Origin: an uncultured Brachyspira sp.
Lineage (GTDB): Bacteria; Spirochaetota; Brachyspiria; Brachyspirales; Brachyspiraceae
Direction of reading: 5' to 3'
DNA length: 64,000 bases
NCBI RefSeq assembly: GCF_944388875.1
Contig: NZ_CALXKQ010000003.1
Location: 62,001 to 126,000 of the forward strand
Positions 11,039 to 43,791 of this stretch are shown piece after piece. The position numbers were made by a program, and so were the translations under genes. The number at the start of each line of letters is the position of its first letter. Positions within the stretch are counted from its first letter, which is position 1. Under the pieces are notes generated by a model. It saw only the letters and a program-made list of their open reading frames with translations, ran no database searches and had not been told where the DNA came from.

Positions 11039-12232
11039 ATGAAAAATAAAATTATAATTATATTATTGACAGTAATTACATCACTATATTCAAATCAAAT
11101 AAATGAAAGCAATAATGACAAAATAAAAGATAATATACAATTAAAAAACACATCAATGACAAATGAAATAAGAATGCCAAGTGATGAATTATCAAAACTA
11201 TTAGAAAAGAATAAAAATAAAACAGGCATCGCTGAGATAATTGAATTAATAAATGACGGCGGTATAAATGCTCAGTCAAAAGATGAAATTCTCATAGGCA
11301 ATATTACACATTATACTAATACAACTCCTTTAATGATAGCCTCATCATATGGGCATTATGATATAGCAAAAGCATTGATTGATAATGGGGCTTTGGTTAA
11401 TTTAAGAGCAGGCGACGGATTTAATGCTTTAATGGAATCTGTAAGAACTGATAATATAGAGATAGCAAAATTATTAATAGAAAATAATTCTGATATAAAT
11501 ATAAAAAATAAAGACGGCAAAAATATGATTATGATTGCATGCGAAAATGGCAATGAAGAAATGTTTAATCTATTACTAGAAAATAATGCAGATATAAATG
11601 AAAAATCGTCTTGGGGAGCATCTGCACTTATTTATGCTTCTGAAAAAGGCAATATTAATATAATGCAATATTTAATAGATAACGGAATAGATGTTAATGG
11701 AAAAGCCGATGATAATGGGGATACTCCATTACTTTGGGCTGTTACAGGACAAAATCCTTATGAAGCTTCAAAACTTTTAATAGAAAATGGTGCCGATGTA
11801 AATGCTACAAATAACAGCGGAGTTGCTCCTGCTACTATACTTGCAGGCTCTGTTCCTAAAGTAGTTAAACTTTTAAAAGATAATGGTGCTGATTTGGATA
11901 CAAAATTTGCTGATGATGATCCTCCTATAGCAATTGCTGCAAGCGTTGGTAATTTAGAAATAGTTAAGGCATTAGTTGAAAATGGTGCTGATGTGAACTA
12001 TTATCCTAATGATATGAACTACACTGCAATATATCATGCTATAGATCAAGGCTCTTATGAAGTTGCTGAATATTTATTTAAAAATGGTGTTGATTTAAAT
12101 ATAAAAATGAAACCTGATAATGACTATGGCAGAAGTATAAAAGAAAGCTACAATGTTTTAGAATATGCTGAAGCTATGCATGATAAAAAAATGATTAATA
12201 TAGTAAAAAAATATTATAAGAAAAAATTATGA
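11039..12232 (+). CDS. Secreted ankyrin-repeat protein
   Basis: This 397-residue protein has an N-terminal signal peptide (KNKIIIILLTVITSLYS, probable cleavage soon after) and a spacer. About eight ankyrin repeats follow: TPLMIASSYGHYDIAKALIDNG, NALMESVRTDNIEIAKLLIENN, SALIYASEKGNINIMQYLIDNG, TPLLWAVTGQ, PPIAIAASVGNLEIVKALVENG and AIYHAIDQGSYEVAEYLFKNG. The consensus is better preserved than in the protein at 3606-4901. The role is presumably protein binding outside the cytoplasm. The 3' end overlaps the convergent dynamin-like gene by 6 bp. Confidence 0.87.
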   Translation: MKNKIIIILLTVITSLYSNQINESNNDKIKDNIQLKNTSMTNEIRMPSDELSKLLEKNKNKTGIAEIIELINDGGINAQSKDEILIGNITHYTNTTPLMIASSYGHYDIAKALIDNGALVNLRAGDGFNALMESVRTDNIEIAKLLIENNSDINIKNKDGKNMIMIACENGNEEMFNLLLENNADINEKSSWGASALIYASEKGNINIMQYLIDNGIDVNGKADDNGDTPLLWAVTGQNPYEASKLLIENGADVNATNNSGVAPATILAGSVPKVVKLLKDNGADLDTKFADDDPPIAIAASVGNLEIVKALVENGADVNYYPNDMNYTAIYHAIDQGSYEVAEYLFKNGVDLNIKMKPDNDYGRSIKESYNVLEYAEAMHDKKMINIVKKYYKKKL

Positions 12233-14164
12233 TTTAATAGAAAATATATTATTTATACATTTTATTATATCATAATAAATTTTATAGGAATTATTTATAT
12301 ACAATTCATACTCTTTAATTTTATTTTCTACATTTTTTTTGATATTATTAATATTTTCATTAATATCTTTAGTGTTTTCTCTAATATTAGTGTCAATGCC
12401 TTTATCATTTTTTATACGTTCATAAGGAACTAAACCTCTATATTTAGAAACTAAACTTTTTACATAAGACATATTTGATATATATTTATTATTCACAGAT
12501 AATAATTCCTTTTTATAATTATTTAATATTTCTATATCATATTGAAATTTCTCTCTATAATTAATAAAAATATTATCAATATTGTTTTTAATAGATTCAT
12601 ATTTATCATTATTTTTTTTATTTAAATCTTTCAAAAAATCAGGTAATGATATACCATATTTAAAATTATGGTAATAATGCTCATTGGATTCTAATTTCTT
12701 ATAATGCGAAGTATAAGGTGATATTCCTACAACGCTTATTTTATGCTTTTGTAATTCTTTATCAACTTGATTACATATTTCTTTTATTTGTTTATCATCT
12801 CTAGTATCAGAACGGTTAATAATAATAAACATTTTAATTTTAGGATTAATAGATAATATTTCTTTTAAAAACTGTATATCAGTTTTTGTTATAGTTCCTT
12901 CTGTTACATTTATCAGCCATATAAGTGTATTTGTATTTACAATATGTTTTTTAGATATTTCTCTATCTTCTTTAGATTCATTGGGAGGATTATATCCTGG
13001 TGTATCAACAAAACATATATTACGTACACTCACTTTAAGTTTATCATTAATATAAAAATACTTTATCACATTTTTAGGATTAAAACTGGTTTCAATATTT
13101 TCACTTACGCTATTTTTTACAGATATAAAATCAAATATAGATTTATCAACCTTTGATTTTTTATTATCTAAAGTTAAACACTCTATATAGCTTTCTTCAC
13201 TGTGAATTATATATGCAGGTATAGAAGTAACAGGAACATCTCCTGTAGGTAAAGTAAAATAATTACCATTGCTAAACAGTGTATTTATAAATGATGATTT
13301 ACCTGAACTAAAAGCCCCTCCTATAGAAACTATATTTCTTGTATATAAAATAGGATTTTTTGCTATCTCATCTAATTCATTTTCTATATCTTTTAATTCA
13401 TAAAATAGCAAACCCATATTTTTATAATCAGGTTTTGCAATTAGATTTCTAAACTCATTTAAGTATTTATTCTCTTCTGATTTGGAATTCAAAATACTTA
13501 ATACAGATTTAAATATATTTCCAATACTCTCTTTTTCTTTCTTTTCTTCTGTTAATTCATCTTTGGTATCGTCTAACTCTCTCTCTGCCTTCTTTAATTT
13601 TTCATCAAAAGATTGTTTTTCTGTATCTAATTCTGAAATTTTGCTATTTAATTCTTTAACATTTTTTTTATACTTATTTTTTTCATTCTCCAAATCTTCT
13701 AAATCTTCATTCAGCTGATGAATACTTTTCTTTTTATTTTCTAATTCCTCATTTAAATCATTAATCTCTTTATCTTTATTTTCTAAACTGGAATTAAGAT
13801 TAGCAATATCCTGACTTTTATTTTCTATATCAGCATTTAAATTACTAATCTCTTTATCTTTATTTTCTAAATTGGAATTAAGATTAGCAATGTCCTGACT
13901 TTTATTTTCTATATCAGCATTTAAATCACTAATCTCTTTATTCTTGCTTTCCAAATTAGCATTAAGATTAGCAATATCCTGACTTTTATTTTCTATATCA
14001 GCATTTAAATTACTAATCTCTTTATTTTTAGTTTCTAAATCATTATTTAATTGAGATATTAAATTATTCAAATATGATAATTTTCTCATCTTCAATGAAA
14101 AAAATACCAATAATATTAACAAAAATATTATTACAGCAGAAAATATATATATTATATTATTCAT
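12227..14164 (-). CDS. Membrane-anchored dynamin-like GTPase with coiled-coil repeats
   Basis: This is a 645-residue protein. Residues 1-25 form one membrane helix. Residues about 30-215 are a long coiled coil that includes a 28-residue repeat (NLNADIENKSQDIANLN-type). A dynamin-family G domain follows: P-loop GGAFSSGKSSFIN, switch II VDTPGYN and NRSD as the base-specificity motif. A helical C-terminal stalk completes it. Dynamin-like proteins remodel membranes or seal membrane damage; the closest genetic parallel is multi-gene bacterial sets such as LeoABC. It is the last of three GTPase genes on this strand, 17 bp after the previous one. Confidence 0.8.
   Translation of the reverse strand: MNNIIYIFSAVIIFLLILLVFFSLKMRKLSYLNNLISQLNNDLETKNKEISNLNADIENKSQDIANLNANLESKNKEISDLNADIENKSQDIANLNSNLENKDKEISNLNADIENKSQDIANLNSSLENKDKEINDLNEELENKKKSIHQLNEDLEDLENEKNKYKKNVKELNSKISELDTEKQSFDEKLKKAERELDDTKDELTEEKKEKESIGNIFKSVLSILNSKSEENKYLNEFRNLIAKPDYKNMGLLFYELKDIENELDEIAKNPILYTRNIVSIGGAFSSGKSSFINTLFSNGNYFTLPTGDVPVTSIPAYIIHSEESYIECLTLDNKKSKVDKSIFDFISVKNSVSENIETSFNPKNVIKYFYINDKLKVSVRNICFVDTPGYNPPNESKEDREISKKHIVNTNTLIWLINVTEGTITKTDIQFLKEILSINPKIKMFIIINRSDTRDDKQIKEICNQVDKELQKHKISVVGISPYTSHYKKLESNEHYYHNFKYGISLPDFLKDLNKKNNDKYESIKNNIDNIFINYREKFQYDIEILNNYKKELLSVNNKYISNMSYVKSLVSKYRGLVPYERIKNDKGIDTNIRENTKDINENINNIKKNVENKIKEYELYINNSYKIYYDIIKCINNIFSIKS
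13717..14035 (-). repeat. 84-bp tandem repeat inside the dynamin-like gene
   Basis: Three full copies and a partial copy of an 84-base unit encode the 28-residue coiled-coil repeat. The marker GCAATRTCCTGAC on the plus strand starts at 13803, 13887 and 13971, exactly 84 bases apart. Each unit itself divides into two similar 14-residue halves. The copies are nearly identical in DNA, so copy number could change by slippage or recombination while staying in frame. Confidence 0.85.
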
Positions 14165-14181
14165 ATATAGAGTATCCTAAT

Positions 14182-16392
14182 TTAAAATAATTTTACTATT
14201 TCAGATTTTATTATAATCCACTTTTCTTCGGCTCTTTTTTTATTTTGAACCTCATCTTTTTTAGTTTCCAATTCAGACTTTTGTTTTTCTAAAGTTTCTT
14301 TACCAAAATCAATGGATTTTAATTTATTAGCCAAACTGCTGATATTTTCATCAGCAAATACAGTTCTGAAATCTTCTCTCATTTTCTGCAAATATCTGTC
14401 AGCTTCAGCTATAAATTGCTCTGCAGAATATCCTGATACAGTTCCATTTGGAGCAAGAGGCGTATTTTCAGTATATGTAACTTTTTTATCTAAATATTCA
14501 TTGATTATAGCACTTACAGATCTGGATATATCACTTTCTCTCATTTCCAAACCATTATCTGCAAAAACATTGTATATCTTACTTATAATTAACTCTCTAA
14601 ACTCAATATACATATTACCTAAAGTTATATACATCTGCTCATTAAATTTATTTTTATATAGGTTTATAGAATTAATTACCTGATTTGTATTAACAGTTGC
14701 ATATGTATCATAATGAGTTTTTTTCCACCACAAGATACCAGTAGTCCATGATCTAGTTTCTTCTCCTTTAGCACCTTCTATTTTACCGCTTGCCTCATTA
14801 AAAAAATCATTTAATATTCTTAATCCGTTGTCAATAGCTTCGTATTTCCAAGTATCAATAGTATTTTTAGCCACATAATTTATATCTGATTCTAAGTTTA
14901 CGCATTTTTTTTCTAAATCTCTTATCTGCTTAGATAATACATCTATATCCATAGTATTTAATCTTCTTTCTCTTGTTTTAACATATTCTTTTAATTCTGA
15001 TTTTATCTCTTCAGCATTATTCATATATTTTTCTTCAAACTTATCTAAAGCAGCCTTTAATATATCTTCTTTTCTATCTGCAACTGATTTTAATATAGAT
15101 TTTACTTTATCAATATTTGCTAAATAATTAAGCCAATGTATGCTTGTTTCTTTTTCAGATTTGCTAAAATAATCTGGATAAGACTCTGAAAAATTTTTAA
15201 AAACAGTATCTTCATTTTGAGACCAATTACCCCATTTTTTTACAAGACTGTCGCATATACCTGAAGAATATAATACTCTGTTTTCAATATCTTTTATTAT
15301 ACAGTCAAAAGTATCATTATTATTTGCTGCCATATCTTTAAAATTCTTTTTTATATACTGATACTGACTTGTAAGCAGAGATTTTACCGCTTTTTCTAAA
15401 TCACCGTTTGCCTTATATGAATTATCGGAACCATTTAAAGTATCATCTATCTTGCTTAAAATAACATATATTTCCTGTATACCCTCTTTTTTTAATATCT
15501 TATTAATTACATCTTTATCTGTAGCTGTAAATGCTTGTGTGGAAGGCATTAATATAAATATTACTTCGCATTTTTGCAGAAGTTCTGACGCTTTTCTATT
15601 TCTTGATTCAACAGGATCATTGAAACCCGGAGTATCAAGAACACTCACCTCTTTTAACTCTTCTATCTTTATATGCAAATTTAAACTTTTTACAAAATGC
15701 GTATATTTACCAGCCACCCCTACATAATCCTGAAGTTTTCCTGCTATATCCTCAACATTATTAAAATCAATTTTTTCAACCCCTTTAGATAAAACTTCAT
15801 TATATATACTTTTACTTGTATTTGCTATATCATTATAATTATCATACCCTGATGCCAAATATCCATTCTCTTGCATAAGTTCTTCTCTGGCTCTTTCCTC
15901 AATATTAGTTTCATCAGAAGAATAACTATTTGAAATATAATTTTGATTAAATTCATTTTTTAATTTATTGATTCTATCTTTAAGCAGCTCTTCAAATTTA
16001 TCATGCACTTTTTTATAGTTTTTAATATCATCTTCTGTAACAAATTCCACTTCAATATAATTTTTATCAGAATACTGCATATATGTAAGAGCTGCTGTCA
16101 TAGGAGTAGCTGCTTTAGGTAAAATATCTTTTCCGTCAAATAATAAAGAATTAAGAAGAGATGACTTACCTGCTTTTACTCTTCCTACAATACCTACTCT
16201 TAAAGTTCTATCCATATTAACTGTATCATTAAAATCATTCTCTATAGATTCTATACTTCCAAATTTACATTCATTTGCTATATTTTTTATAGTATCTACG
16301 AACTCTATGTCATCACTATGCTTATCAGCCAATTTATCTATTGCCTTCTTAATATCTATAATTTTATTTTTTGCTTGAATAATATCATTCAT
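14182..16392 (-). CDS. Dynamin-like GTPase, soluble
   Basis: This 736-residue protein has a near N-terminal G domain: P-loop GRVKAGKSSLLNSLL (about residue 70), G2-like TPMTAALT, G3 VLDTPGFNDP and G4 LSKIDD. An alpha-helical region with coiled coil near residues 460-510 and 690-720 follows. There is no clear membrane helix. It belongs to the bacterial dynamin-like group that acts at membranes or in stress and defence. It is the middle gene of the three-GTPase operon, with 20-bp and 17-bp gaps. The three proteins differ enough to suggest a hetero-oligomeric machine rather than recent copies. Confidence 0.8.
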   Translation of the reverse strand: MNDIIQAKNKIIDIKKAIDKLADKHSDDIEFVDTIKNIANECKFGSIESIENDFNDTVNMDRTLRVGIVGRVKAGKSSLLNSLLFDGKDILPKAATPMTAALTYMQYSDKNYIEVEFVTEDDIKNYKKVHDKFEELLKDRINKLKNEFNQNYISNSYSSDETNIEERAREELMQENGYLASGYDNYNDIANTSKSIYNEVLSKGVEKIDFNNVEDIAGKLQDYVGVAGKYTHFVKSLNLHIKIEELKEVSVLDTPGFNDPVESRNRKASELLQKCEVIFILMPSTQAFTATDKDVINKILKKEGIQEIYVILSKIDDTLNGSDNSYKANGDLEKAVKSLLTSQYQYIKKNFKDMAANNNDTFDCIIKDIENRVLYSSGICDSLVKKWGNWSQNEDTVFKNFSESYPDYFSKSEKETSIHWLNYLANIDKVKSILKSVADRKEDILKAALDKFEEKYMNNAEEIKSELKEYVKTRERRLNTMDIDVLSKQIRDLEKKCVNLESDINYVAKNTIDTWKYEAIDNGLRILNDFFNEASGKIEGAKGEETRSWTTGILWWKKTHYDTYATVNTNQVINSINLYKNKFNEQMYITLGNMYIEFRELIISKIYNVFADNGLEMRESDISRSVSAIINEYLDKKVTYTENTPLAPNGTVSGYSAEQFIAEADRYLQKMREDFRTVFADENISSLANKLKSIDFGKETLEKQKSELETKKDEVQNKKRAEEKWIIIKSEIVKLF

Positions 16393-16412
16393 AATATTAA
16401 CTCCTAATTTTT

Positions 16413-18079
16413 TTATTCATTATATAATACATTTGATACTTCATCTATTTTTTTCAAATTATCCTGAAGTTTAGATATTAAAGCATCTAAATCTTTTTTA
16501 CTTGATAATTCTTCCTGAGCTTGTTCTATTTCTTCTTTTTTCTTATTTAATTCTTCATCAAAAGATTCTGATATAGCCTCTATAGATTTTGAAGCATTTT
16601 CTTTAAATATCTGTGTTATCTGTACTTTAAGCTCTCTTTTTATATGTGTAATCTGACTTATAATCTGATTTTTAATTTCTTCTTTTTGCTGTCTTTCTTT
16701 TAAAAATCCAAAGCACACATTGATTATTTCTGGTAAAAATACTACTAAAATCTCTATAATCGGATTTACAACACTTGTTAATATTGCTGCAGTAGTCATA
16801 ACAGTTTTATATACGGTATTTGAACTTGTGCCTGTGTTTTTTAATTTAGGAATTTTTATTTTATCTTTGTATTTCTCTATATTGTATTCTATTTTCTGAA
16901 TAAAATTAGGTATATTATATTCTGATAATATAGAATCTAAACTTTTAACATCTGCTGAAATTTCTCTGCTTATATTAACATTAATATTATCCAAAGCAAT
17001 ATTTGTTTTTTCTATAATAATAGGCTGTATTATATTAAGCATCTCTTCTTTTAAACCTTCTGAATCTCCTCTCATAGCAGCATTAACCAATGAATCCAAA
17101 TTATTATTAAGTTCTTTTCCTACTTCCTGCACTATACTATTTACTTCAGAATCATAGTTTTTATTTTTTTCATCTTCTATCAATCTTGCCCTTTTCAATT
17201 CTATTTTATTTATAGCCTCTTTTAAATCATCTATAATTTTATCATTTGCTTTTTTATCTTTTTTCAAAGCTGATATTCTAACATTAATTGAAGATTTTAA
17301 TTCATATATTAACTCTTTTATTGAATCAATATAAATAGATTTACATATATTTTCAGGGTCTAATTTAGTAATAACTTCATTAAATAAATTTATATCCTTA
17401 CTGCTTATACTATATATATCTTTATCATAAGAAACCTGTTTTAAAGTTTTTATCATTTCTTCTTTAATAGAATTAAAATCTTCTTTACTTCTAAGTTCTG
17501 ATTTAGTTATAAACATTGAGAAATCTTTTTTAAATCCTCTAATATTTTTTATCTGCGTCATCAATGATTTGCTTATAGTACCAGCATCTATAGCTGAAAG
17601 CACCGTATAATAAACACCTTTATCTAAATAACTCATTATAGATTTATTGTGATTTTCTAAAGGAGAATCAAACCCCGGCATATCTACCAATATAATAGGA
17701 TCTATTTTTTCAAATTATCACTATTTATATATCTTCTTACATAAGAATATTTCTGTATATTCTCGGTACTTAGATCATCTATTTCTATTTCATTACCATC
17801 TTTATCAACAGCAATATTGTATTCTCTTTCACTATAATATAGTTCAGCAGGAATAGAAGTTTCTGGCAATACATTAACAGCCAATATATTTTTACCTATA
17901 AATTTATTTAAAAGAGTACTTTTACCTGAACTAAAATCACCTACAACAGGTATTAATAATTTCGTTTCTCTTATAATATTTTCTAAAGATTCTATATTTG
18001 AACTATCAATCTCAGATTCTTCTGATATAACTTTTAAATCAATCATAAGGTTTATAAATTTTTCCTGTATATTTAACAT
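16413..18079 (-). pseudogene. Dynamin-like GTPase split by a -1 frame change
   Basis: Two ORFs together make one G protein of about 555 residues. The first (start ATG at 18079 after AGGAG; an earlier GTG at 18088 is less likely) carries the P-loop VGDFSSGKSTLLN and stops at TAG, 17702-17704. The second continues in the -1 frame with DPIILVDMPGFDSP (G3), TKSE (G4), stalk helices, a hydrophobic segment (TVMTTAAILTSVVNPIIEILVVFLP) and a C-terminal coiled coil. The break lies at TTG AAA AAA TAG. One extra A, or -1 slippage on AAA AAA, restores NLKKIDPIILVDMPGF. It is a broken gene, a slippage-controlled gene or a base-call error. Confidence 0.8.
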
Positions 18080-18172
18080 AAAAAACACTCCTAAAAAATA
18101 TAATAGTTTTTAATACTAACATATTAATGCATTTTATTCAATATCATTAAATAATAAATTATATAAACCATA

Positions 18173-21545: not shown

Positions 21546-21822
21546 GAATATTACTCCTTATAAAAATTTGTTGCAAATATTATACAATAAAATGATTTTT
21601 TAGTAAATGATTTTTATAAATTTATTCTTTATTTTATAAATATAACAAAATATCTATTTTTATCAGCAAAAAAATACAAAAAATTAATATTAATAAAAAA
21701 GAATATTAATCGTAATATATATAATAATGCCTATACACATAATATAACTTTTCTTTAATATGCTATTAACATTATAGAAAAATAATATACAATATAAATA
21801 ATTACTAATATCAGGATTAAAA

Positions 21823-21918
21823 ATGTTAAAAACTATTACTTATATAATATCAATTTCAGCTTTAATTTTAAGCATAATAAATTTAATTATGATTATAAAA
21901 ACATCTAAGCAAAAATAA
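21823..21918 (+). CDS. 31-residue single-helix membrane peptide
   Basis: A short ORF with AGGA 8 bases before ATG encodes a peptide that is almost one transmembrane helix: LKTITYIISISALILSIINL, then MIIKTSKQK with a basic tail. No family is recognised. It is the first of three similar tiny membrane peptides in the 21.8-22.6 kb cluster. Type I toxins and small membrane regulators have this form, but function is inference only. Confidence 0.5.
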   Translation: MLKTITYIISISALILSIINLIMIIKTSKQK

Positions 21919-21940
21919 CGATATAAATGAAGGTCAATAT

Positions 21941-22039
21941 ATGAATAACAAAATAATTGAGAATATAAGATTTGCTAGTTTTATTATATTATCTTTATCT
22001 GTAATAATTTTATCAGTAGCTTTTATAATTAAAGGATAA
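21941..22039 (+). CDS. 32-residue single-helix membrane peptide
   Basis: The ORF follows GAAGGTCAATAT and starts MNNKIIENIRFASF, then a hydrophobic helix IILSLSVIILSVAFII and a KG end. Only 4 bp separate its stop from the ribbon-helix-helix gene, whose own SD (AAAGGA) lies inside this ORF. The leader AGGTCAATAT and the start residues resemble those of the peptide at 22266, which suggests that the peptide plus DNA-binding-protein pair was duplicated. Confidence 0.55.
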   Translation: MNNKIIENIRFASFIILSLSVIILSVAFIIKG

Positions 22040-22043
22040 TATT

Positions 22044-22247
22044 ATGTCAAGAGGCGGAGCAAGAGAGGGTGCAGGACGTAAAAAAATTGCCCCTGAAAAT
22101 AAAGCTAAACCAATATCAAAAGTAGTTTATGTAAGATTAGAAAATGAACTATATGATAAATTAGAAAATATTGCTGAAAGCGAAAATCAAACTATAAGCC
22201 AATATTTAAAGCAAATGATAATAAATAGAATAGAAAGCAAAGAATAA
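22044..22247 (+). CDS. Ribbon-helix-helix protein with GGARxGAGRKK start
   Basis: This is a 67-residue basic protein. The start SRGGAREGAGRKK is a Gly/Arg motif often seen at the N-terminus of small phage and plasmid proteins. Then comes a strand (KVVYVRLENELYDK) and two helices (LENIAESENQTISQYLKQMIINRI) in the layout of an Arc/CopG ribbon-helix-helix domain. Such proteins bind operators as dimers and often act as antitoxins or copy-number repressors. The gene is tightly linked to a membrane peptide on each side. Confidence 0.7.
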   Translation: MSRGGAREGAGRKKIAPENKAKPISKVVYVRLENELYDKLENIAESENQTISQYLKQMIINRIESKE

Positions 22248-22265
22248 AAAATTATGGAGGTCAAT

Positions 22266-22379
22266 ATGTATAACAAAGAAAACTCAAAAAAATTGCATAT
22301 CATTTGTGATTTAATAATATCTATTAGTCAGTTAATTATTGCTGTATCATTAATTATATGGGTGATAAAAAATGGATAA
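22266..22379 (+). CDS. 37-residue single-helix membrane peptide
   Basis: The ORF has GGAGGTCAAT before ATG and encodes MYNKENSKKLHIICDL, then a helix IIISISQLIIAVSLIIWVI-like run and a KNG end. Its TAA lies inside the next gene: the ATG of the following ribbon-helix-helix gene at 22372 overlaps it by 8 bases, so translation of the two is probably coupled. It resembles the peptide at 21941 in leader and layout. No family is recognised. Confidence 0.6.
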   Translation: MYNKENSKKLHIICDLIISISQLIIAVSLIIWVIKNG

Positions 22380-22590
22380 TGAAGTAAAAAACACGCACGG
22401 CGGTGCTAGAGCAGGTGCTGGCAGAAAGAAAAAAGAGAACAAAAAAAATACTCATGTTATATTTTTTAGAATAAGCGATGAAGAAAATGAGCTTTTAAAA
22501 AAACATGCTCAGGAAAATGATATGAGTGTTGGGTTATATTCAAAAAAAATCGTACTTGATAAAATAACAGATATGGAAGAAAATAAATAA
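22372..22590 (+). CDS. Second ribbon-helix-helix protein with GGARxGAGRKK start
   Basis: This 72-residue protein is a paralogue of the one at 22044. It shares HGGARAGAGRKKK, then a strand (HVIFFRISDEENELL) and helices (KKHAQENDMSVGLYSKKIVLDKI). The fold call ribbon-helix-helix is from pattern, not from a database match. Its start overlaps the preceding membrane peptide. It is the last gene of the compact cluster, which has no transposase or integrase beside it. Confidence 0.7.
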   Translation: MDNEVKNTHGGARAGAGRKKKENKKNTHVIFFRISDEENELLKKHAQENDMSVGLYSKKIVLDKITDMEENK

Positions 22591-22654
22591 AAAAATTATG
22601 AAATAGTACATTTTTATAGATTAAATAAAAAAGTCTAAAAAAACTTAAAAAGAA

Positions 22655-22745
22655 CTAGAACAGGAGGACGCATATCCCCTCCATCGCAGTACTTGAAAGT
22701 CAAGTAAGCGGCAGTCGAGCACGATTTTCTACCATTCGTACTAAC
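22655..22745. ncRNA. GC-rich structured patch, identity unknown
   Basis: In otherwise AT-rich DNA this stretch is clearly GC-richer and contains two hairpins: GGAGG with CCTCC (22661-22680 region) and the 7-bp palindrome TACTTGA-AAG-TCAAGTA. Further GC-rich sequence follows (GCGGCAGTCGAGCACG). It is not a recognisable tRNA on either strand: no T-arm consensus and no closing acceptor stem. It could be a small RNA for the cluster upstream, or an inserted element end. Confidence 0.3.
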
Positions 22746-22819
22746 TCTATATATTTAGTTTAACAAAGTTTTATGATAAGTCAATACAAAAGTAAAAAAA
22801 TATTAAACAGCGATAAACT

Positions 22820-22866: not shown

Positions 22867-23135
22867 ATGCTTAGCTTATTTGATACAGCAAAAAGAATAT
22901 TAAAATATTTCTTTGCCGAAAGGCACCTTGCCTACGGAACGCAGAGCGTCGGTGAAAATAATTTATTCAGCATTGATAATATTTTGTCAAATACGCCATA
23001 GGAGTGCCTTCGGTAAAAATTGAGGCACTTGTCAGAGCAATAGACAAAGGCATAAAAAAAGATTATGACAAAGTATTGATAATAAATGAGAGGAAGCAAG
23101 CTAATGAAAAAACGATAAAAAATTACCATGATTAA
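22867..23135 (+). pseudogene. Broken ORF with GC-rich insertions
   Basis: The frame starts MLSLFDTAKRILKYFF, passes through a GC-rich patch (GCCGAAAGGCAC to GCGTCGGTG), continues with ENNLFSIDNILSNTP and hits TAG at about 23000. In a shifted frame it resumes VKIEALVRAIDKGIKKDYDKVLIINERKQ and ends at 23135. The junction holds a second GC-rich bit, GAGTGCCTTCGG, that is inverse to GCCGAAAGGCAC. It looks like a small gene interrupted by a palindromic REP-like element. The family is not recognised. Confidence 0.5.
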
Positions 23136-23165: not shown

Positions 23166-24706
23166 AATACTAATTACAAAAGCATACCCGCCCTAGCTTT
23201 TATTAAATTTTGAATTTTCATTAACGCACGCTGAACTCAGTTTTTAATATAAATAAATTTGAATTGCAAATAATTATATATTTTTAACTTTATTCTGCGT
23301 GCGGTGAGTTGGCTATAAATTTAAAAAATGCTTGGGTGGGCAATGCTATAACTATTTTTAACCAAAAATAAAAATAACACATAAATTACAGATTAAGGCA
23401 GAAAATATAAAGGGTGGGAAAATGTAAGTAAATTTTTTGAATTTGGTTACATACCCAACCCTTATAAATTTCTTGCTTCTACTAAAAGTCGCATTATAAT
23501 TAATTTTACTGCCTAATTACAAAAGCACACCATCCCTAGCTTTTATTAAATTTTGAATTTTCATTAACGCACGCTGAACTTAGTTTTTAATATAAATAAA
23601 TTTGAATTGCAAATAATTATATATTTTTAACTTTATTCTGCGTGCGGTTAGTTAACTATAAATTAAAAAAACGCTTGGGTGGGTAGTGCTTTAACTATTT
23701 TTAACCAAAAATAAAAATAACTCAGAAATTACAGATTAAAGCAGAAAATATAAAGGGTGGGAAAATGTAAGTAAATTTTTTGAATTTGGTTACATACCCA
23801 ACCCTTATAAATTTCTTGCTTCTACTAAAAGTCGCATTATAATTAATTTTACTGCCTAATTACAAAAGCACACCATCCCTAGCTTTTATTAAATTTTGAA
23901 TTTTCATTAACGCACGATAAACCAAATTTTTAATATAACATAAATTTGAATTGAAAATAATTATATATTTTTAACTTCGTTCTGCGTGCGTGGAGTTAGC
24001 AATAAATTTAAAAAATACTTGGGTGGGTAGTGCTATAACTATTTTAAACTAAAAATAAAAAGAACTCAGAAATTACAGATTAAAGCAGAAAATATAAAGG
24101 GTGGGAAATTAAATTCAAAATTTATTTAACGCACGGTAAATACACTTTATACATAAATAAAATTCTAATAATTAATTCATTCATAATCACAAATAAATTA
24201 ATCGTGCGGTGAGTTGACAATAAATTTAAAAAATTCTTGGGTGGGTAGTGCTATAACTATTTTTAACTAAAAAGAAAAATACCACAGAAATAACAAATTA
24301 GATTTTAAATCTCAAGGGTGGGGAATGTAAGTAAATTAAAAATTTATATAACGCATGGTTAATACCGCTTCATGTATAGGCAAAATTATACTACTCAATT
24401 CATAATCACAAATCAATTAAGCGTGTGGTGAGTTGATAATAAATTAAAAAAATGCTTGGGCGGGCAGTGCTATGACTATTTTAACCCAAAAGAAAAATAA
24501 TACAGAAATAAGATATTAAAGCAGAAAATATAGAGTATGGGAAAATGAAAATAAATTTTAAAATCTTATAACATACCCCGCCCTTATAAATTCCCTGCTT
24601 TTATTAAAAATAGAATTCTAATTAATTTTACTGCCTAATTACAAAAGCACACCCACCCTAGCTTTTATTAAATTTATAATTTTTATTAACGCACGATTAT
24701 AAATTC
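23166..24706. repeat. Non-coding array of nested inverted repeats
   Basis: No ORF of note occurs here. The marker CTTGGGTGGG (last copy CTTGGGCGGG) appears at 23331, 23674, 24018, 24236 and 24455, so the steps are 343, 344, 218 and 219 bases: long units followed by shortened ones. Each unit contains an arm AGCAC..ACCCTAGC..AACGCACG and its inverse CGTGCG..GCTTGGGTGGGTAGTGCT about 150 bp later. A second hairpin uses AAAGGGTGGGAAAATGTAA against TTACATACCCAACCCTT. The array ends in an isolated left arm at about 24650-24700. Long units 1 and 2 are almost identical, and the later ones have diverged. Confidence 0.85.
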
Positions 24707-38098: not shown

Positions 38099-39208
38099 TT
38101 ATTCTGGTAATTTATAATCATCTTTATCTTTTTTGGCTTCAATAGATTCTTTAGCATATTTAAATACTATATCAGCAAATGATTTTACTTGTTCCTCAAT
38201 ATCAGTATTACCATTAAGTATAGCTTCATATAATTTATAACATGCAGCACTAACAGCCTCCCCTAAAGCAGAAGTTAATAAAGAAGCTACACTTCCATTA
38301 ATAACTCCTCCAAAGATATTTAACCCCGGTATAAATTTTAACAACTGACCTACAGCTGATTTTCCTAATACAGTCATTATTTGTCCTATAATTCCTCCGC
38401 CTGTACCAGAAGTAAGAATATTTTCTAAACCTTTTAAATCATAAATATATAATATTCTAGCTATCATTCCCATTTGATTAAGAACTAAAGCAGGAGCATC
38501 CGCAAAAGGCACAGGAATAAATCCAACCCCAAATGCCAAACCTAAATGCTGTAATATAACTCCATGTGCTCTGTTCCATTTTTCTTTTAATGAAACTTTT
38601 TGTGCTGATATAAAGCCGTCCTGTAATATGTCAGGCAATTTTTTTATTGAATCAGTAATAAGCTTATTAAGTTCATTTTTAAATAAACTGTCATTAGATA
38701 TTGAAGAAGTTTCATATATATTGATATTCTCGATTTCTTTATTTACTGTTTCTTTTAATTTTAAAATAGTATCTTCTGAAACTAAATCGCATTTTGTAAA
38801 TAAAATACTTACTATTAAACCATTTTCTCTAAATCTTTTAATAGTATTAATATCAAAATCAGTTACTTTATGACCTGAAGAAGCTATACAATACCAAACT
38901 AAATGAATATTTTCTTTTGTATTAATAACATCATCTTCAAATTTTTTTGCTTTTTCAGTGCCTACTTCATAACCCGGACTGTCAAACAATACAACACCAG
39001 CATCATAATCTTCATACTTCTCTATAGAATCAGTTACAGGCTTTCCCATTCCTGTTTTTGCTAATTCTTGACCAAATATTTTATTTATTAAGCTGCTTTT
39101 ACCTACGCCAGTACCGCCTGCCAAAAGTATATTAGGCTTTTTAACACCTTTCTTAAACTTTTCAAATTCTTCTAAAATTTTTTGATTAATTTGTTCTTCT
39201 ATTGACAT
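38099..39208 (-). CDS. Small GTPase with C-terminal membrane-associated domain
   Basis: This is a 369-residue protein. The N-terminal Era-like G domain has P-loop GGTGVGKSSLINKIFG, then VTDSIEKYE, G3 FDSPGYEVG and G4 TKCD. The C-terminal half has Gly/Ala-rich hydrophobic helices (FGVGFIPVPFADAPALVLNQMGM, GTGGGIIGQIMTVLG, IFGGVINGSVASLLTSALG) of the DUF697 kind found in GTPases linked to membranes. It is the last and most divergent member of a four-gene array, 4 bp after its neighbour, with AAAGGAG before ATG. The function is not known. Confidence 0.75.
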   Translation of the reverse strand: MSIEEQINQKILEEFEKFKKGVKKPNILLAGGTGVGKSSLINKIFGQELAKTGMGKPVTDSIEKYEDYDAGVVLFDSPGYEVGTEKAKKFEDDVINTKENIHLVWYCIASSGHKVTDFDINTIKRFRENGLIVSILFTKCDLVSEDTILKLKETVNKEIENINIYETSSISNDSLFKNELNKLITDSIKKLPDILQDGFISAQKVSLKEKWNRAHGVILQHLGLAFGVGFIPVPFADAPALVLNQMGMIARILYIYDLKGLENILTSGTGGGIIGQIMTVLGKSAVGQLLKFIPGLNIFGGVINGSVASLLTSALGEAVSAACYKLYEAILNGNTDIEEQVKSFADIVFKYAKESIEAKKDKDDYKLPE

Positions 39209-39212
39209 AATA

Positions 39213-40895
39213 TTACTCCTTTTTATTATTTTCTAATCTATTTTTAAGTTCTTCGTCTGATTTTTCTAAAATTTCATTAATTGCATCTCTCAAATTATTT
39301 TCAAATTTTTTATTTTCTTCACTTGAGATATTTTCTATAATGCCGTCAGCAACCCTATCTATAAAATAATTAATATCTTCTTTTTTTCCAGATAAATTAT
39401 AATGAATCAGCCTTCCTATATCAAATAAACCTCCAATCACCGTAGCAAGAATTACAACAGGAGATACGATGATTGTTGCTAAAATGCTTCCTATTACATC
39501 CCCTATATCAATAACTACATCACTAATAAGAAGATGAGAAAATAAATCAACAACAAAAGAATAAAAACCATAAATTTCATGATCATTTCCAGAAAATATA
39601 TCAATATCTTTATTTATACTATATAATGTTTCCGAAACCTTATAATATTTTTGTATGCTTGTTTTAACATATTCTTGCATATTATTTTTTACTAATGTAT
39701 CAAATTCTTCTTTTATAGAATCAGATAATTTTTTCAAATCATTTTCTTTAAAATCTTTCTTTTTTAATTCATCTCTTTTTTTATTTATATCAATTTTTAT
39801 CTTTTCTATTATATGCAAAGGTATTCTGTCAATAAATATTTTTCTCCAAGAGGCTAATATTGAATATTTGTACTCTTCTAATCCGAAAGGCTTAGGAGTT
39901 TCTTTCATACCTCTTTTTATTTCAGGTGCTGCCCCTACGGCTATAACAGTTTCAACACCTGTTTCATTTTTGATTATTTCAATAAACTCTTTCTCTTTCT
40001 CTTCACTTAGCTGATCTGCCTTTGTGAGAGCTACTATAACATTATATTTATCTTCTAAAAACTGTTTAATAATATTTATATCAAAATCCTGTATCTTAGC
40101 TCCTCCAGCCTGTATACAGTAAGTTACACTATGATACCAGTCTTTCATATCTTTGTCTACAGAACGGTATTTTAATTCTTCTTTTATCATATTATACCAT
40201 TTATCAGATTTACCTACTTCAAGTCCCCAGCTGTCGTATATTACTACATCTTTTCCATCTATAGTTTCTTCATGAGGAAATATACCTTCAGGAGTACAAG
40301 GTTTTCCAATGCCTGTTTCTTCTATTTTCTTACCTACTAAAGCATTAAGTAAAGAACTTTTTCCTACACCTGTCTGTCCTAAAACCAATAAATTTAATTC
40401 TATATAATTTTCTGTATTATTTCTTTTGAATGCTCTAAATACTGCTTTTTTATATTCTTCAACGCCGAAATAATTATTTGCTTCAATATTTGATATTGTA
40501 ACTATTCTGTAACATTTTGTTTTTTCTTTTATATTTTTTACCAATTCCGTTAATTGTTCTTTTACTGATAAATCTGATTTAGTTAATGCTATTATAACAC
40601 TATATTCATCAATGATAATTTTTTTTATCATTGATGCATCTTCATCAGATATTCCTATTGAATTTGAAGATACACAGTAAGTAATAACAAATGAATTTTT
40701 ATCAGCACTTTCCAAAAAGATTTGAAAATTTGTATTACTTTCAAATATAACAACATCTCTATTATCAACTTTTACTTCTATAGGATTATCTGAAGCCTTA
40801 ATATTATTTCCAACAAAAGAATTAATCAATGCACTTTTACCTGAAGCATGTTGACCTAAAATTAATAAATTTAATTTTTGATTATTTTCCGACAT
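39213..40895 (-). CDS. Tandem-G-domain GTPase, first domain degenerate
   Basis: This is a 560-residue protein. The first G-domain-like part (1-165) keeps a P-loop-like GQHASGKSALINSFVG and TKSD, but its switch region (DVVIFESNTNFQIFLE) has lost the DxxG motif and is shortened. The second (about 170-370) is complete: GQTGVGKSSLLNALVGKK, TPEGIFPHEE, YDSWGLEVG and TKAD. The C-terminus has membrane-like segments (VVIDIGDVIGSILATIIVSPVVILATVIGG). It belongs to the same array as its neighbours. The pattern suggests domain duplication followed by decay of one copy, perhaps to a regulatory half. Confidence 0.78.
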   Translation of the reverse strand: MSENNQKLNLLILGQHASGKSALINSFVGNNIKASDNPIEVKVDNRDVVIFESNTNFQIFLESADKNSFVITYCVSSNSIGISDEDASMIKKIIIDEYSVIIALTKSDLSVKEQLTELVKNIKEKTKCYRIVTISNIEANNYFGVEEYKKAVFRAFKRNNTENYIELNLLVLGQTGVGKSSLLNALVGKKIEETGIGKPCTPEGIFPHEETIDGKDVVIYDSWGLEVGKSDKWYNMIKEELKYRSVDKDMKDWYHSVTYCIQAGGAKIQDFDINIIKQFLEDKYNVIVALTKADQLSEEKEKEFIEIIKNETGVETVIAVGAAPEIKRGMKETPKPFGLEEYKYSILASWRKIFIDRIPLHIIEKIKIDINKKRDELKKKDFKENDLKKLSDSIKEEFDTLVKNNMQEYVKTSIQKYYKVSETLYSINKDIDIFSGNDHEIYGFYSFVVDLFSHLLISDVVIDIGDVIGSILATIIVSPVVILATVIGGLFDIGRLIHYNLSGKKEDINYFIDRVADGIIENISSEENKKFENNLRDAINEILEKSDEELKNRLENNKKE

Positions 40896-40912
40896 ATTTA
40901 ATTCCTTTTATG

Positions 40913-42664
40913 TTAATTTTGAGAATATTCAGAAAGTTTTTTATCTGTTTCTTCTAAACATTTTATAATTGCATTCTTAATATTCAAAATATAATCTTTC
41001 CCAACAATTTGATATTTAAGTTTATCTATAAGCTCATTAATGAATTTCTCTCTCTGAGCTTCTTTTATTTTTCCTCCAAATATAGTAAATATTCCTCCTA
41101 CTATTGCTAAAGGCAATCCTATGAATGGCAAAAATATACCAAGTGTAAATAAAAATTTAAAAAATCCAATATTAAATAATAAATCAAAAATATTTTCAAA
41201 ATCCATATTAAAAAAATTATCTTTGTAAAAACTATATTGATGAAAATTATATCTAGCATTATTAATTAACATACCGCTGTTAAGAGATACTATATCTATT
41301 TGAATATTATAATATGCTTTTATAGTATCTTTAATATATAGTAAAATTTCATCTTTAAAAAACTGCTCTATCTCTTCAGTAATACTGCTTTTTAATACAT
41401 TATCATTTAGATTGTATTTTTTATATTTATTAATAAGTTCATATCTTTTATTTTCTAAATCATTTTTTATTTTTTCAGATATATAAATAGGAACTCTCTC
41501 AATGAACATCTGTTTCCAAGATTCTAATACAGCAATTTGATAATCATCAAGTCCCAAAGGAGAAGGAGTTTCTGTCATACCTCTTAATTTATCTGGAGAA
41601 GCTGCAATTGGTATTACTTTTTTAACCCCTGTTACATTTTTGATTATTTCAATAAACTCTTTTTCTTTATCTTCACTAATCTGATCTGCTTTTGTCAATG
41701 CTATTACAACATCATATTTCTCTTCAATAAACTGTTTAATAATGTTTATATCGAAATCTTGTATTTTATCTCCTCCAGCATTTATACAATAAGTTACACT
41801 ATGAAACCAGTCTTTTATATCTTTATCTACCCCTCTTCGCTTCAGTTCATCTTTGATTATTTGTTCCCATTCTTTATCCTTTCCAACTTCAAGCCCCCAA
41901 CTGTCATATATTACAACATCTTTTCCATTAATAGAAGTTTCATGCGGAAATATACCTCTTTTAGTTATAGGTTTTCCAACACCTGTTTTTTCAACTTCAT
42001 ACCCTACCAAAACATTTATTAAACTGCTTTTTCCTACTCCTGTTTGTCCAAGTATAAGCATATTTAATTCAATATAATTTTCTAATGCATTACGTTTACA
42101 TATTCTGAAAATTGTTCTTTTATACTCTTCCAAACCAAAAGGAGAAGGAGTTTCTGTCATACCTCTTAATTTATCTGGAGAAGCTGCAATTGGTATTACT
42201 TGTTCAACACCTGTTTCTTCTTTTATTATATCAATGAATTCTTTTCTAAGAGATTCTTCTATTTGATCTGCCTTTGTCAATGCTATTACAACATCATATT
42301 GATTTTCTATAAATTGTTTAATAATTTTTATATCAAAATACTGTATTTTAAATCCTCCGGCCTGTATACAATAGGTAACGCTATGAAATCTATCTTTAAT
42401 GTCATTACATCTTATATATAATTCATTTCTTATTATTCTTTCCCATTCTTCGATTTTATCTACTTCAAGCCCATAACTGTTATATATTACAACATCTTTA
42501 CCGTCAATAGAAGTTTCATACGGAAATATACCTCTTGCAGCTATAGGTTTTCCCGTACCAGTTATTTCAACTTCATGACCTACTAAAGCATTTATTAAAC
42601 TGCTTTTTCCAACTCCTCTTTGTCCCAAAATTAGTAAATTAAACTTCTGATTATTTTCCGACAT
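40913..42664 (-). CDS. Tandem-G-domain GTPase, both domains complete
   Basis: This 583-residue protein has two closely related G domains: GQRGVGKSSLINALVG, YNSYGLEVD and TKAD in the first, then GQTGVGKSSLINVLVG, YDSWGLEVG and TKAD in the second. Both are followed by the marker SPDKLRGMTETPSP. The C-terminal region has a hydrophobic hairpin (FFKFLFTLGIFLPFIGLPLAIVG). The second domain's DNA is nearly identical in places to the neighbouring gene at 42682-43791, so the duplication is recent or maintained by gene conversion. Membrane-linked homodimeric or intramolecular G-domain pairing is plausible. Confidence 0.8.
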   Translation of the reverse strand: MSENNQKFNLLILGQRGVGKSSLINALVGHEVEITGTGKPIAARGIFPYETSIDGKDVVIYNSYGLEVDKIEEWERIIRNELYIRCNDIKDRFHSVTYCIQAGGFKIQYFDIKIIKQFIENQYDVVIALTKADQIEESLRKEFIDIIKEETGVEQVIPIAASPDKLRGMTETPSPFGLEEYKRTIFRICKRNALENYIELNMLILGQTGVGKSSLINVLVGYEVEKTGVGKPITKRGIFPHETSINGKDVVIYDSWGLEVGKDKEWEQIIKDELKRRGVDKDIKDWFHSVTYCINAGGDKIQDFDINIIKQFIEEKYDVVIALTKADQISEDKEKEFIEIIKNVTGVKKVIPIAASPDKLRGMTETPSPLGLDDYQIAVLESWKQMFIERVPIYISEKIKNDLENKRYELINKYKKYNLNDNVLKSSITEEIEQFFKDEILLYIKDTIKAYYNIQIDIVSLNSGMLINNARYNFHQYSFYKDNFFNMDFENIFDLLFNIGFFKFLFTLGIFLPFIGLPLAIVGGIFTIFGGKIKEAQREKFINELIDKLKYQIVGKDYILNIKNAIIKCLEETDKKLSEYSQN

Positions 42665-42681
42665 ATTTTATTCCTAAATAT

Positions 42682-43791
42682 TTATTGATTATTTAAAGTT
42701 ATATTGTCTATATCATCTAATACCTTATTTAAAGTTTCTCTTATATAATTTTCTCTATCTTTATCAGATAATTTTTCATATAATAATTTTGCAATTTCTT
42801 CGATTGTATCTTCTTTAATTTTTTTAGCGAATAAAGATCTTACTTGCTGTGCTATAAGCTTAAAAAGAATATCAGCAATAGTAGGAGCAGTAATAGTAGT
42901 AGCTATTAAAACACCAACAGTAGGAAAAGGCATGAATGGAAACGCCATTTTTGGATGATAGGTTCTGAAAAGATGAACATTTAAAGACATTATATCAACG
43001 TATATGTTATAATATTTGCCTATATATTCCTGTAAGTATCTATTAGCTTCTTCTTCAATTAATTTTTGAAATTCATTTAATACAATATCTTGAAAATTAT
43101 CGCCTATGGTATTACAGTCTTTAAATTTATAATTTAATTCGAATTTTCCCTTATCCATTACATATTTTTTCAATCTTTCAATTATAGAAATAGGTACTCT
43201 GTCAAGAAATATTTTTTTCCAAGATGCTAATATAGCATCTTGATATTCTGAAAGACCAAAAGGTTCAGGAGTTTCTGTCATAAATCTTGTTTTTTCAGGA
43301 GCTGCACTAACAGATATGACAGTTTCTACATTTGTTTCTTTTTTAATGATATTAATAAATTCTATAGTCTTTTCTTCACTAATTTGATCAGATTTAGTTA
43401 ATGCTATAACGACATTATATTTTTTATCAGTAAACTGTTTAATAATTTTTTTATCAAAATCTTCTATTCTATTTCCTCCAGCCTGTATGCAGTAAGTAAC
43501 ACTATGGAACCAATCTTTTATATCTTTATCTACCCCTCTTTGTTCCAATTCATTTTTGATTATTTTTTCCCATTCTTGAGATTTATCTACTTCAAGTCCC
43601 CAGCTATCGTATATTACAACATCTTTACCTCCAATAGAAGTTTCATGCGGAAAAATTCCTCTTTTTGTTACTGGTTTGCCTATTCCTGTTTCCTCTACCT
43701 GCTTACCTACTAATGAATTAAGCAAACTGCTTTTACCTGTACCTGTTTTTCCCAAAATTAATAAATTTAATTTTATTTCATCATTATTCAT
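42682..43791 (-). CDS. Single-G-domain GTPase heading the array
   Basis: This 369-residue protein has P-loop GKTGTGKSSLLNSLVGKQ, then KPVTKRGIFPHETSI, G3 YDSWGLEVD, G4 TKSD and the array marker APEKTRFMTETPEP. A helical part follows, with a hydrophobic stretch (AFPFMPFPTVGVLIATTITAPTIADILF). It is the first gene of the minus-strand array and probably represents the ancestral one-domain layout. Resemblance to interferon-inducible IRG-type and YeeP/YfjP-type GTPases is by motif only. Confidence 0.78.
   Translation of the reverse strand: MNNDEIKLNLLILGKTGTGKSSLLNSLVGKQVEETGIGKPVTKRGIFPHETSIGGKDVVIYDSWGLEVDKSQEWEKIIKNELEQRGVDKDIKDWFHSVTYCIQAGGNRIEDFDKKIIKQFTDKKYNVVIALTKSDQISEEKTIEFINIIKKETNVETVISVSAAPEKTRFMTETPEPFGLSEYQDAILASWKKIFLDRVPISIIERLKKYVMDKGKFELNYKFKDCNTIGDNFQDIVLNEFQKLIEEEANRYLQEYIGKYYNIYVDIMSLNVHLFRTYHPKMAFPFMPFPTVGVLIATTITAPTIADILFKLIAQQVRSLFAKKIKEDTIEEIAKLLYEKLSDKDRENYIRETLNKVLDDIDNITLNNQ

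Follow-up and report, generated by a model that had tools for sequence, protein, structure and literature searches.

In hok/sok, AapA/IsoA and similar type I toxin-antitoxin systems, long-range pairing within the toxin mRNA blocks translation, the toxin is a hydrophobic single-helix peptide, and an antisense RNA faces it. The closest precedent for the locus described here is yonT/SR6/yoyJ of the B. subtilis prophage SPbeta, whose antisense RNA begins within the 5' part of a second, weak toxin gene and reaches into the 3' end of the first toxin gene (PMC5848175). According to a 2025 paper, type I toxin-antitoxin systems had previously come only from Proteobacteria, Firmicutes and Tenericutes, to which Cyanobacteria are now added (PMC12390103). 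In the part of the literature that was searched, no spirochaetal type I system was found, nor any description of a type I-like unit coupled to a ribbon-helix-helix (RHH) protein and defence cargo.

The locus lies beside a PEPCK gene in a window of 64,000 nucleotides (the whole stretch of DNA that was analysed) from an uncultured Brachyspira sp. As an earlier note on this DNA had described, its open reading frames comprise three single-helix peptides of 31 to 37 residues and two RHH proteins, all on the forward strand: pep1 (21823-21918, 31 aa), which resembles the pepB-type peptide MLEKITW... of two other loci (L067, L083); pep2 (21941-22039, 32 aa); RHH1 (22044-22247, 67 aa), with the N-terminal motif GGARxGAGRKK; pep3 (22266-22379, 37 aa), with relatives in genomes G002 and G015; and RHH2 (22372-22590, 72 aa). 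Both pep2 and pep3 are of the pepB type defined below. The overlap of 8 nt between the stop of pep3 and the start of RHH2, also noted earlier, is confirmed by the ORF coordinates. A candidate sigma-70 promoter of pep1 (TTAACA-N16-TACAAT; 21766..21793, forward strand) was recognized from its sequence, and a TTAA-type -35 with TACAAT or TATAAT is also found upstream of pep1 at the syntenic loci in G008, G010 and G015.

The RHH family is present in 20 of 26 Brachyspira genomes. RHH2 passes the gathering cut-off of RHH_7 (PF16777; 30.1 bits, cut-off 27) and is also above the Pfam gathering score for DUF6290, and RHH1 falls narrowly under the former (25.1 bits). A profile built from twelve family members matches the solved structures of Arc, NikA, AvtR and AtaR (PDB). 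The AlphaFold2 model of RHH1 (pLDDT 81), whose best structural matches are Arc, CopASO, ParG and CopG, superposes on Arc with a TM-score of 0.85 by target and an rmsd of 1.0; it is consistent with a strand-helix-helix fold, with helices predicted at residues 34-46 and 51-66 and the strand, whose pairing requires the dimer, unassigned in the monomer model. A same-family RHH protein at L076 (4389-5015; 208 aa) carries a C-terminal extension of ~130 residues and still has a peptide and the antisense promoter motif upstream. In a class with the motif GGARNGAGRK there are no adjacent upstream peptides (L002, 1486-1716; L033, 1501-1692; L016, 1486-1677), and the RHH gene ends just 2-4 nt before a cargo gene in L002 (HNH/CTD10) and L033. 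A separate RHH-like protein of 42 aa (MKKRLIVCRF...) is encoded directly beside the prophage integrase at L073 (8218-8346), L072 (10691-10819), L064 (5409-5537) and L008 (15721-15849), and is possibly an excisionase or integrase regulator.

The earlier note had proposed to look for a hydrophobic ORF recurring upstream of RHH genes across genomes, and such an ORF does recur. In non-redundant Brachyspira loci, a hydrophobic ORF preceded by a Shine-Dalgarno sequence adjoins 8 of 13 RHH genes versus 3 of 146 control genes (Fisher p 2e-8); the same script, strict enough to overlook some true pairs (L017, for example), finds one at 17/34 RHH loci versus 3/23 controls in other Spirochaetota (p 0.004). 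Most RHH genes have upstream a hydrophobic ORF of 26-37 residues that ends within ~20 nt of the RHH start. Outside Brachyspira, roughly half of the RHH loci of Spirochaetota are without peptides, which indicates that RHH proteins with GGARPGAGR form a family wider than the peptide unit. Adjacent peptides were not found at the GGxRxGAGR RHH loci checked in Bacillus, Paenibacillus, Prevotella, Desulforamulus and Acinetobacter, and a tblastn search of a phage database with RHH2 gave no match. Among matches in viral contigs, the one spirochaetal match (L138) has peptides, its RHH protein and peptides being those of the G002:C5 prophage locus, and the remaining seven have no adjacent peptide.

Nei-Gojobori estimates of dN/dS, based on small counts, are ~0.25 for pep1 (against G008, G010 and G015), 0.13-0.38 for pep2 (among G000, G002, G015 and G024) and 0.07-0.17 for RHH1. 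Because these ratios are low, the peptides and RHH proteins are most likely translated and under purifying selection. Chance ORFs in AT-rich DNA are ruled out as an explanation by the controls, by the selection, and by the occurrence of the pairing in spirochaetal genomes of ~50% GC. Three hydrophobic peptides in a row upstream of an RHH gene were also seen at L034 (1127-1490) and L067 (4810-5181), where they begin MEALEF/MEDLNF, MNIENLNTW/MDIENLNTW and MSTAVF/MNIQVL.

The intact order in other prophages is a consensus promoter, a first peptide gene (pepA), a hairpin, an antisense promoter, a second peptide gene (pepB) and the RHH gene, often followed by variable anti-phage cargo. When 12 Brachyspira prophage loci were picked by RHH alone and their upstream DNA was aligned, a near-invariant sense TTGACA...TATAAT, a Shine-Dalgarno sequence, pepA and a hairpin interval were found, and then ATTATA...TGTCAA before pepB. 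On the opposite strand the last element reads TTGACA-N16/17-TATAAT, and this antisense -10/-35 pair is present in most of the 12 loci; in an alignment of 11 loci, its core positions are invariant at 12 of 12, compared with 32 of 193 positions elsewhere. The leader AGGTCAATAT consists of the Shine-Dalgarno sequence and the -35 of this conserved antisense promoter. No clear antisense terminator was identified. A candidate RHH operator, TTGA...TCAA around the -35, was noticed on visual inspection of several loci, where its spacing is uneven.

The product of pepA has a single hydrophobic segment and is 24-34 aa long in 16 distinct Brachyspira ORFs and 31-41 aa long in most other Spirochaetota; it is always hydrophobic and membrane-like, though its classes differ in sequence, and a consensus Shine-Dalgarno sequence precedes it in all of them. 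PepA, which is absent from the window, thereby has the character of the small hydrophobic toxins (under ~60 aa) of type I systems, and profile searches found no toxin family match for it. Its dN/dS is mostly low, a value to which constraint of codons by the RNA fold may also contribute. Modelled from sequence alone, the pepA element has 32 matches at E <= 1.7e-7, in 19 of the 26 Brachyspira genomes. For 31 of the 32, an RHH match follows on that strand within ~400 nt, the exception being G002:C12:9369, and the partner RHH of the match in G020:C135 is degraded. Just upstream of 19 of the 21 distinct matches examined, in sequence that the model does not cover, lies a promoter that agrees with the consensus at 10 or more of 12 bases. 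At loci of other Spirochaetota (L107, L108, L110, L113, L115, L117, L172, L173 and others) the order is promoter, pepA, a hairpin directly after the pepA stop, pepB and RHH. GTCAA is found at the start of pepB in these loci whether it falls in the leader or within codons 1-3, with a -10-like hexamer 17-18 nt away on the antisense strand that is weaker at several of them; its conservation both in untranslated sequence and in frame argues for a signal at the DNA level.

Sixteen distinct pepA transcripts, found via the promoter pattern (which means that the sense promoter cannot count as independent evidence for these 16), were folded individually. RNAalifold had given only local helices on the plain alignment, because that alignment was sequence-based. 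The fold z-scores are -8.1 to -11.1 in 13 of the 16 and -3.0 to -4.7 in the other three. Pairing of the start-codon region with the 3' end, an mRNA structure of the kind known in many though not all type I systems, is predicted in the same 13 of 16, against 1.45 of 16 expected with shuffled 3' UTRs, and the pairs flanking the AUG show compensating changes between classes. The start codon is unsequestered in the predicted folds of L104, L044 and L058, which represent the classes of the window's own pep2 and pep3. The pepA-type fold is absent from the window together with pepA, and neither the window region nor 8 loci gave an above-chance match in Rfam.

Because the window copy has neither pepA nor the mRNA fold nor the antisense -10, it is interpreted from its sequence as a rearranged remnant of the prophage unit, consisting of a pepB-type peptide with an RHH protein twice, plus a lone pepB-type peptide. 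A rearrangement junction was placed at 21919..21940 (forward strand): rightward from ~21921 the sequence matches G024, G002, G020 and G021, the upstream sequence differs, and the pepA, hairpin and antisense -10 of those four genomes are absent (compare L104 and L044). The same pep2 in G024 and G021 still has pepA, a hairpin and TTGACC-N16-TATAAT ahead of it. The leaders upstream of pep2 (AAGGTCAATAT) and pep3 (GAGGTCAATAT) are each accompanied by a GTCAA that represents a remnant antisense -35 on the reverse strand (TTGAC); the -10 belonging to the first (21933..21937) is lost in the window, L104 having TTGACC-N16-TATAAT, and for the second (22260..22264, in the pep3 leader) a relative in L058 retains TTGACC-N17-TATACT. 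A broken gene remnant downstream (MLSLFDTAKRILK...KIEALVRAIDKGIKKDYDKVL; 22867-23135, forward strand) is intact beside phage genes in G015 and G024 (L059, 158-790; L057, 12791-13684).

The module had been described in the earlier note as duplicated, on the strength of a shared leader and layout, and this description did not hold. RHH1 and RHH2 are only 33% identical, yet each has a near-identical relative elsewhere: copies of RHH1 are 94% identical in G024 and 89% in G002, and the RHH2 region has 92% DNA identity to G002:C1:418320-418552. In G002 the RHH2-like copy lies 9 kb from the RHH1-like copy, with a terminase and other phage genes between them. Recent tandem duplication is therefore ruled out, and the leader is no mark of it, being the Shine-Dalgarno sequence and antisense -35 common to most of the family. 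At the syntenic loci next to PEPCK, decay has reached different stages in G010, G008 and G015. G010 retains an intact pep1, its pep2 and RHH1 being broken; pep3 is intact in G015, where RHH2 carries an in-frame TAG; and G008 has an intact pep2-like peptide and an RHH gene that is frameshifted and broken after 20 codons, with the provisos that G008 and G015 are draft assemblies and that a sequencing error is possible in the A-run of G008. Peptide classes and RHH classes also recombine: L004 and L005 have near-identical RHH proteins (dN 0.013) with diverged peptides (dN 0.35), and L030 joins a peptide of one class to an RHH protein of another.

In Brachyspira prophages the large terminase gene (PF03354/PF20441) often lies ~0.5 kb to one side of the unit, with the integrase within a few kb on the other. 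Cargo genes on the same strand begin 0-200 nt after RHH in many loci. This cargo includes a C5 methyltransferase with GmrSD/NsnA-like genes, LmuA/LmuB-like genes, PDC-M68, PDC-M30 (DUF5131) and PDC-M19 (the PDC names of PADLOC being predictions), as well as ABC-3C CTD10 with HNH, and GHKL-type ATPase genes. In the window itself, RHH2 is followed by a conserved, modestly structured non-coding element of ~150 nt (22640..22790, no strand assigned; GGAGGACGC...CCTCC...GCGGCAGTCGAGC...), which recurs with 76-89% identity at several further loci, some of these linked to prophages, and has zero matches in an Rfam search. Tandem non-coding repeats at 23170-24700, spaced by ~343 and 218 nt, contain GGGTGGG and inverted CCCACCC parts. 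Farther away are two clusters of large P-loop GTPase-like genes with GKSS/GKST motifs (12227-18088 and 38099-43791), the second of which holds near-duplicate copies; both resemble expanded dynamin- or GTPase-like families.

Genes, pairing, selection, promoter conservation, genomic context and a predicted RNA fold can be read from these sequences, and from them we infer the toxicity of the peptides, the existence and action of the antisense RNA and the targets of the RHH protein. By analogy with yonT/SR6/yoyJ of SPbeta, the evidence leans somewhat towards the intact unit being a type I-like toxin-antitoxin locus with an added DNA-binding protein, of which the window would hold the downstream half. 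Transcription of pepA, whose hydrophobic product has 24-34 residues in Brachyspira, would be driven by a near-perfect sigma-70 promoter. In most classes the resulting mRNA would fold on itself, pairing the start codon with its own 3' end and blocking translation. The antisense promoter just downstream, which overlaps the pepB leader, would fire back through the hairpin and pepA to yield an antisense RNA, and pepB may be under the same antisense RNA as pepA. Read-through would give pepB, the second membrane peptide, and RHH, often translationally coupled; the facing promoters are most likely under autoregulation by RHH, and variable anti-phage cargo often follows the unit in Brachyspira prophages. 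Upon loss of the prophage, the antisense RNA would disappear and the membrane peptide would be freed. The predicted antisense RNA appears to be a better candidate for the antitoxin than the RHH protein.

The earlier note likened the membrane peptide and its DNA-binding partner to a toxin-antitoxin pair, a proposal assessed here as a type II-like protein pair in which the RHH-adjacent membrane peptide is the toxin and RHH is both antitoxin and autorepressor. The recurring adjacency and the start/stop overlap agree with such a pair, as does the RHH fold, which is common to antitoxins such as CopASO and AtaR, but the intact pep3 of G015 and pep2-like peptide of G008 beside broken RHH genes argue against RHH as an indispensable antitoxin, and so do the L078 class of RHH proteins, which has no adjacent peptide, and the recombination between peptide and RHH classes. 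A protein pair of this type is accordingly judged improbable. What survives of the proposal is a recurring, prophage-borne and most likely translated peptide/RHH unit resembling a toxin-antitoxin module; RHH as the obligatory antitoxin is not supported, nor is the pair as the whole unit, to which intact copies add an upstream pepA with a start-sequestering fold and an antisense promoter.

If pepA and its folded RNA were an attenuator or leader-peptide control rather than a toxin, sensing ribosome stalling or RNA processing and switching read-through into pepB, RHH and cargo, the structured leader with a short ORF and hairpin directly upstream of other genes, and the tight linkage to RHH and same-strand cargo, would be expected; the invariant antisense promoter, however, would have no role, most classes bury the start codon itself, and pepA is hydrophobic in all classes despite their differences in sequence, so that this explanation seems unlikely. 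Small single-helix peptides are common in phages, and the prophage location, often close to the large terminase gene, would suit peptides with a phage function (holin-like, superinfection exclusion or membrane anchor) accompanied by a phage RHH repressor, the RNA fold merely tuning expression. The conserved antisense promoter and sequestered start, the several different peptide classes within one genome and the retention of peptides in decayed copies make such a function hard to credit. Least credible of all is a folded pepA RNA that is itself the product, as a phage structural or packaging-type RNA with an incidental ORF: the fold is very strong and terminase genes are close by, but a consensus Shine-Dalgarno sequence and an open hydrophobic ORF occur in all classes, and the mostly low dN/dS of pepA, with the reservation about codons given above, also speaks against it.

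The type I-like reading can be extended to a more tentative proposal, possible but on the doubtful side, in which these loci form a new Spirochaetota family with two membrane peptides facing a predicted antisense RNA and with an RHH regulator of their own, as the fixed head of swappable prophage defence cassettes and possibly as an addiction guard. If true, such a family would widen the range of type I systems and add a form that brings with it a second peptide and a DNA-binding protein. Its position before swappable defence genes would make it testable whether prophages guard or regulate these cassettes through an RNA-controlled peptide. Genes of 24-40 residues in these prophages, easily overlooked by annotation, are under selection.

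Among known families, the putative holin-like toxin Hol_Tox (PF16935) is likewise a hydrophobic peptide of ~30 residues; pep1 matches it weakly (E 0.09; 13.1 bits, under the curated cut-off of 23.3), and the window's other peptides and the pepA peptides tested do not match it. RHH2 and the RHH1 model place these proteins with the CopG/Arc/NikA-type regulators, from which they differ in the GGARxGAGRKK N-terminal extension and the coupling to membrane peptides. With hok/sok and AapA/IsoA (the H. pylori case in PMC6733600) the spirochaetal unit has in common a folded toxin mRNA, a hydrophobic peptide and, as predicted here, an antisense RNA, and it differs in phylum, in having no family match, and in the added second peptide and RHH protein. 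The unit shares with yonT/SR6/yoyJ a prophage location, a polycistronic mRNA and two consecutive small toxin-like peptides (PMC5848175), whereas YonT has 58 aa and no recognised sequence relation to the spirochaetal peptides; in the spirochaetal unit the antisense RNA is a predicted one, in most classes the 3' end of the pepA mRNA would bury its start codon, and downstream come an RHH gene and defence cargo.
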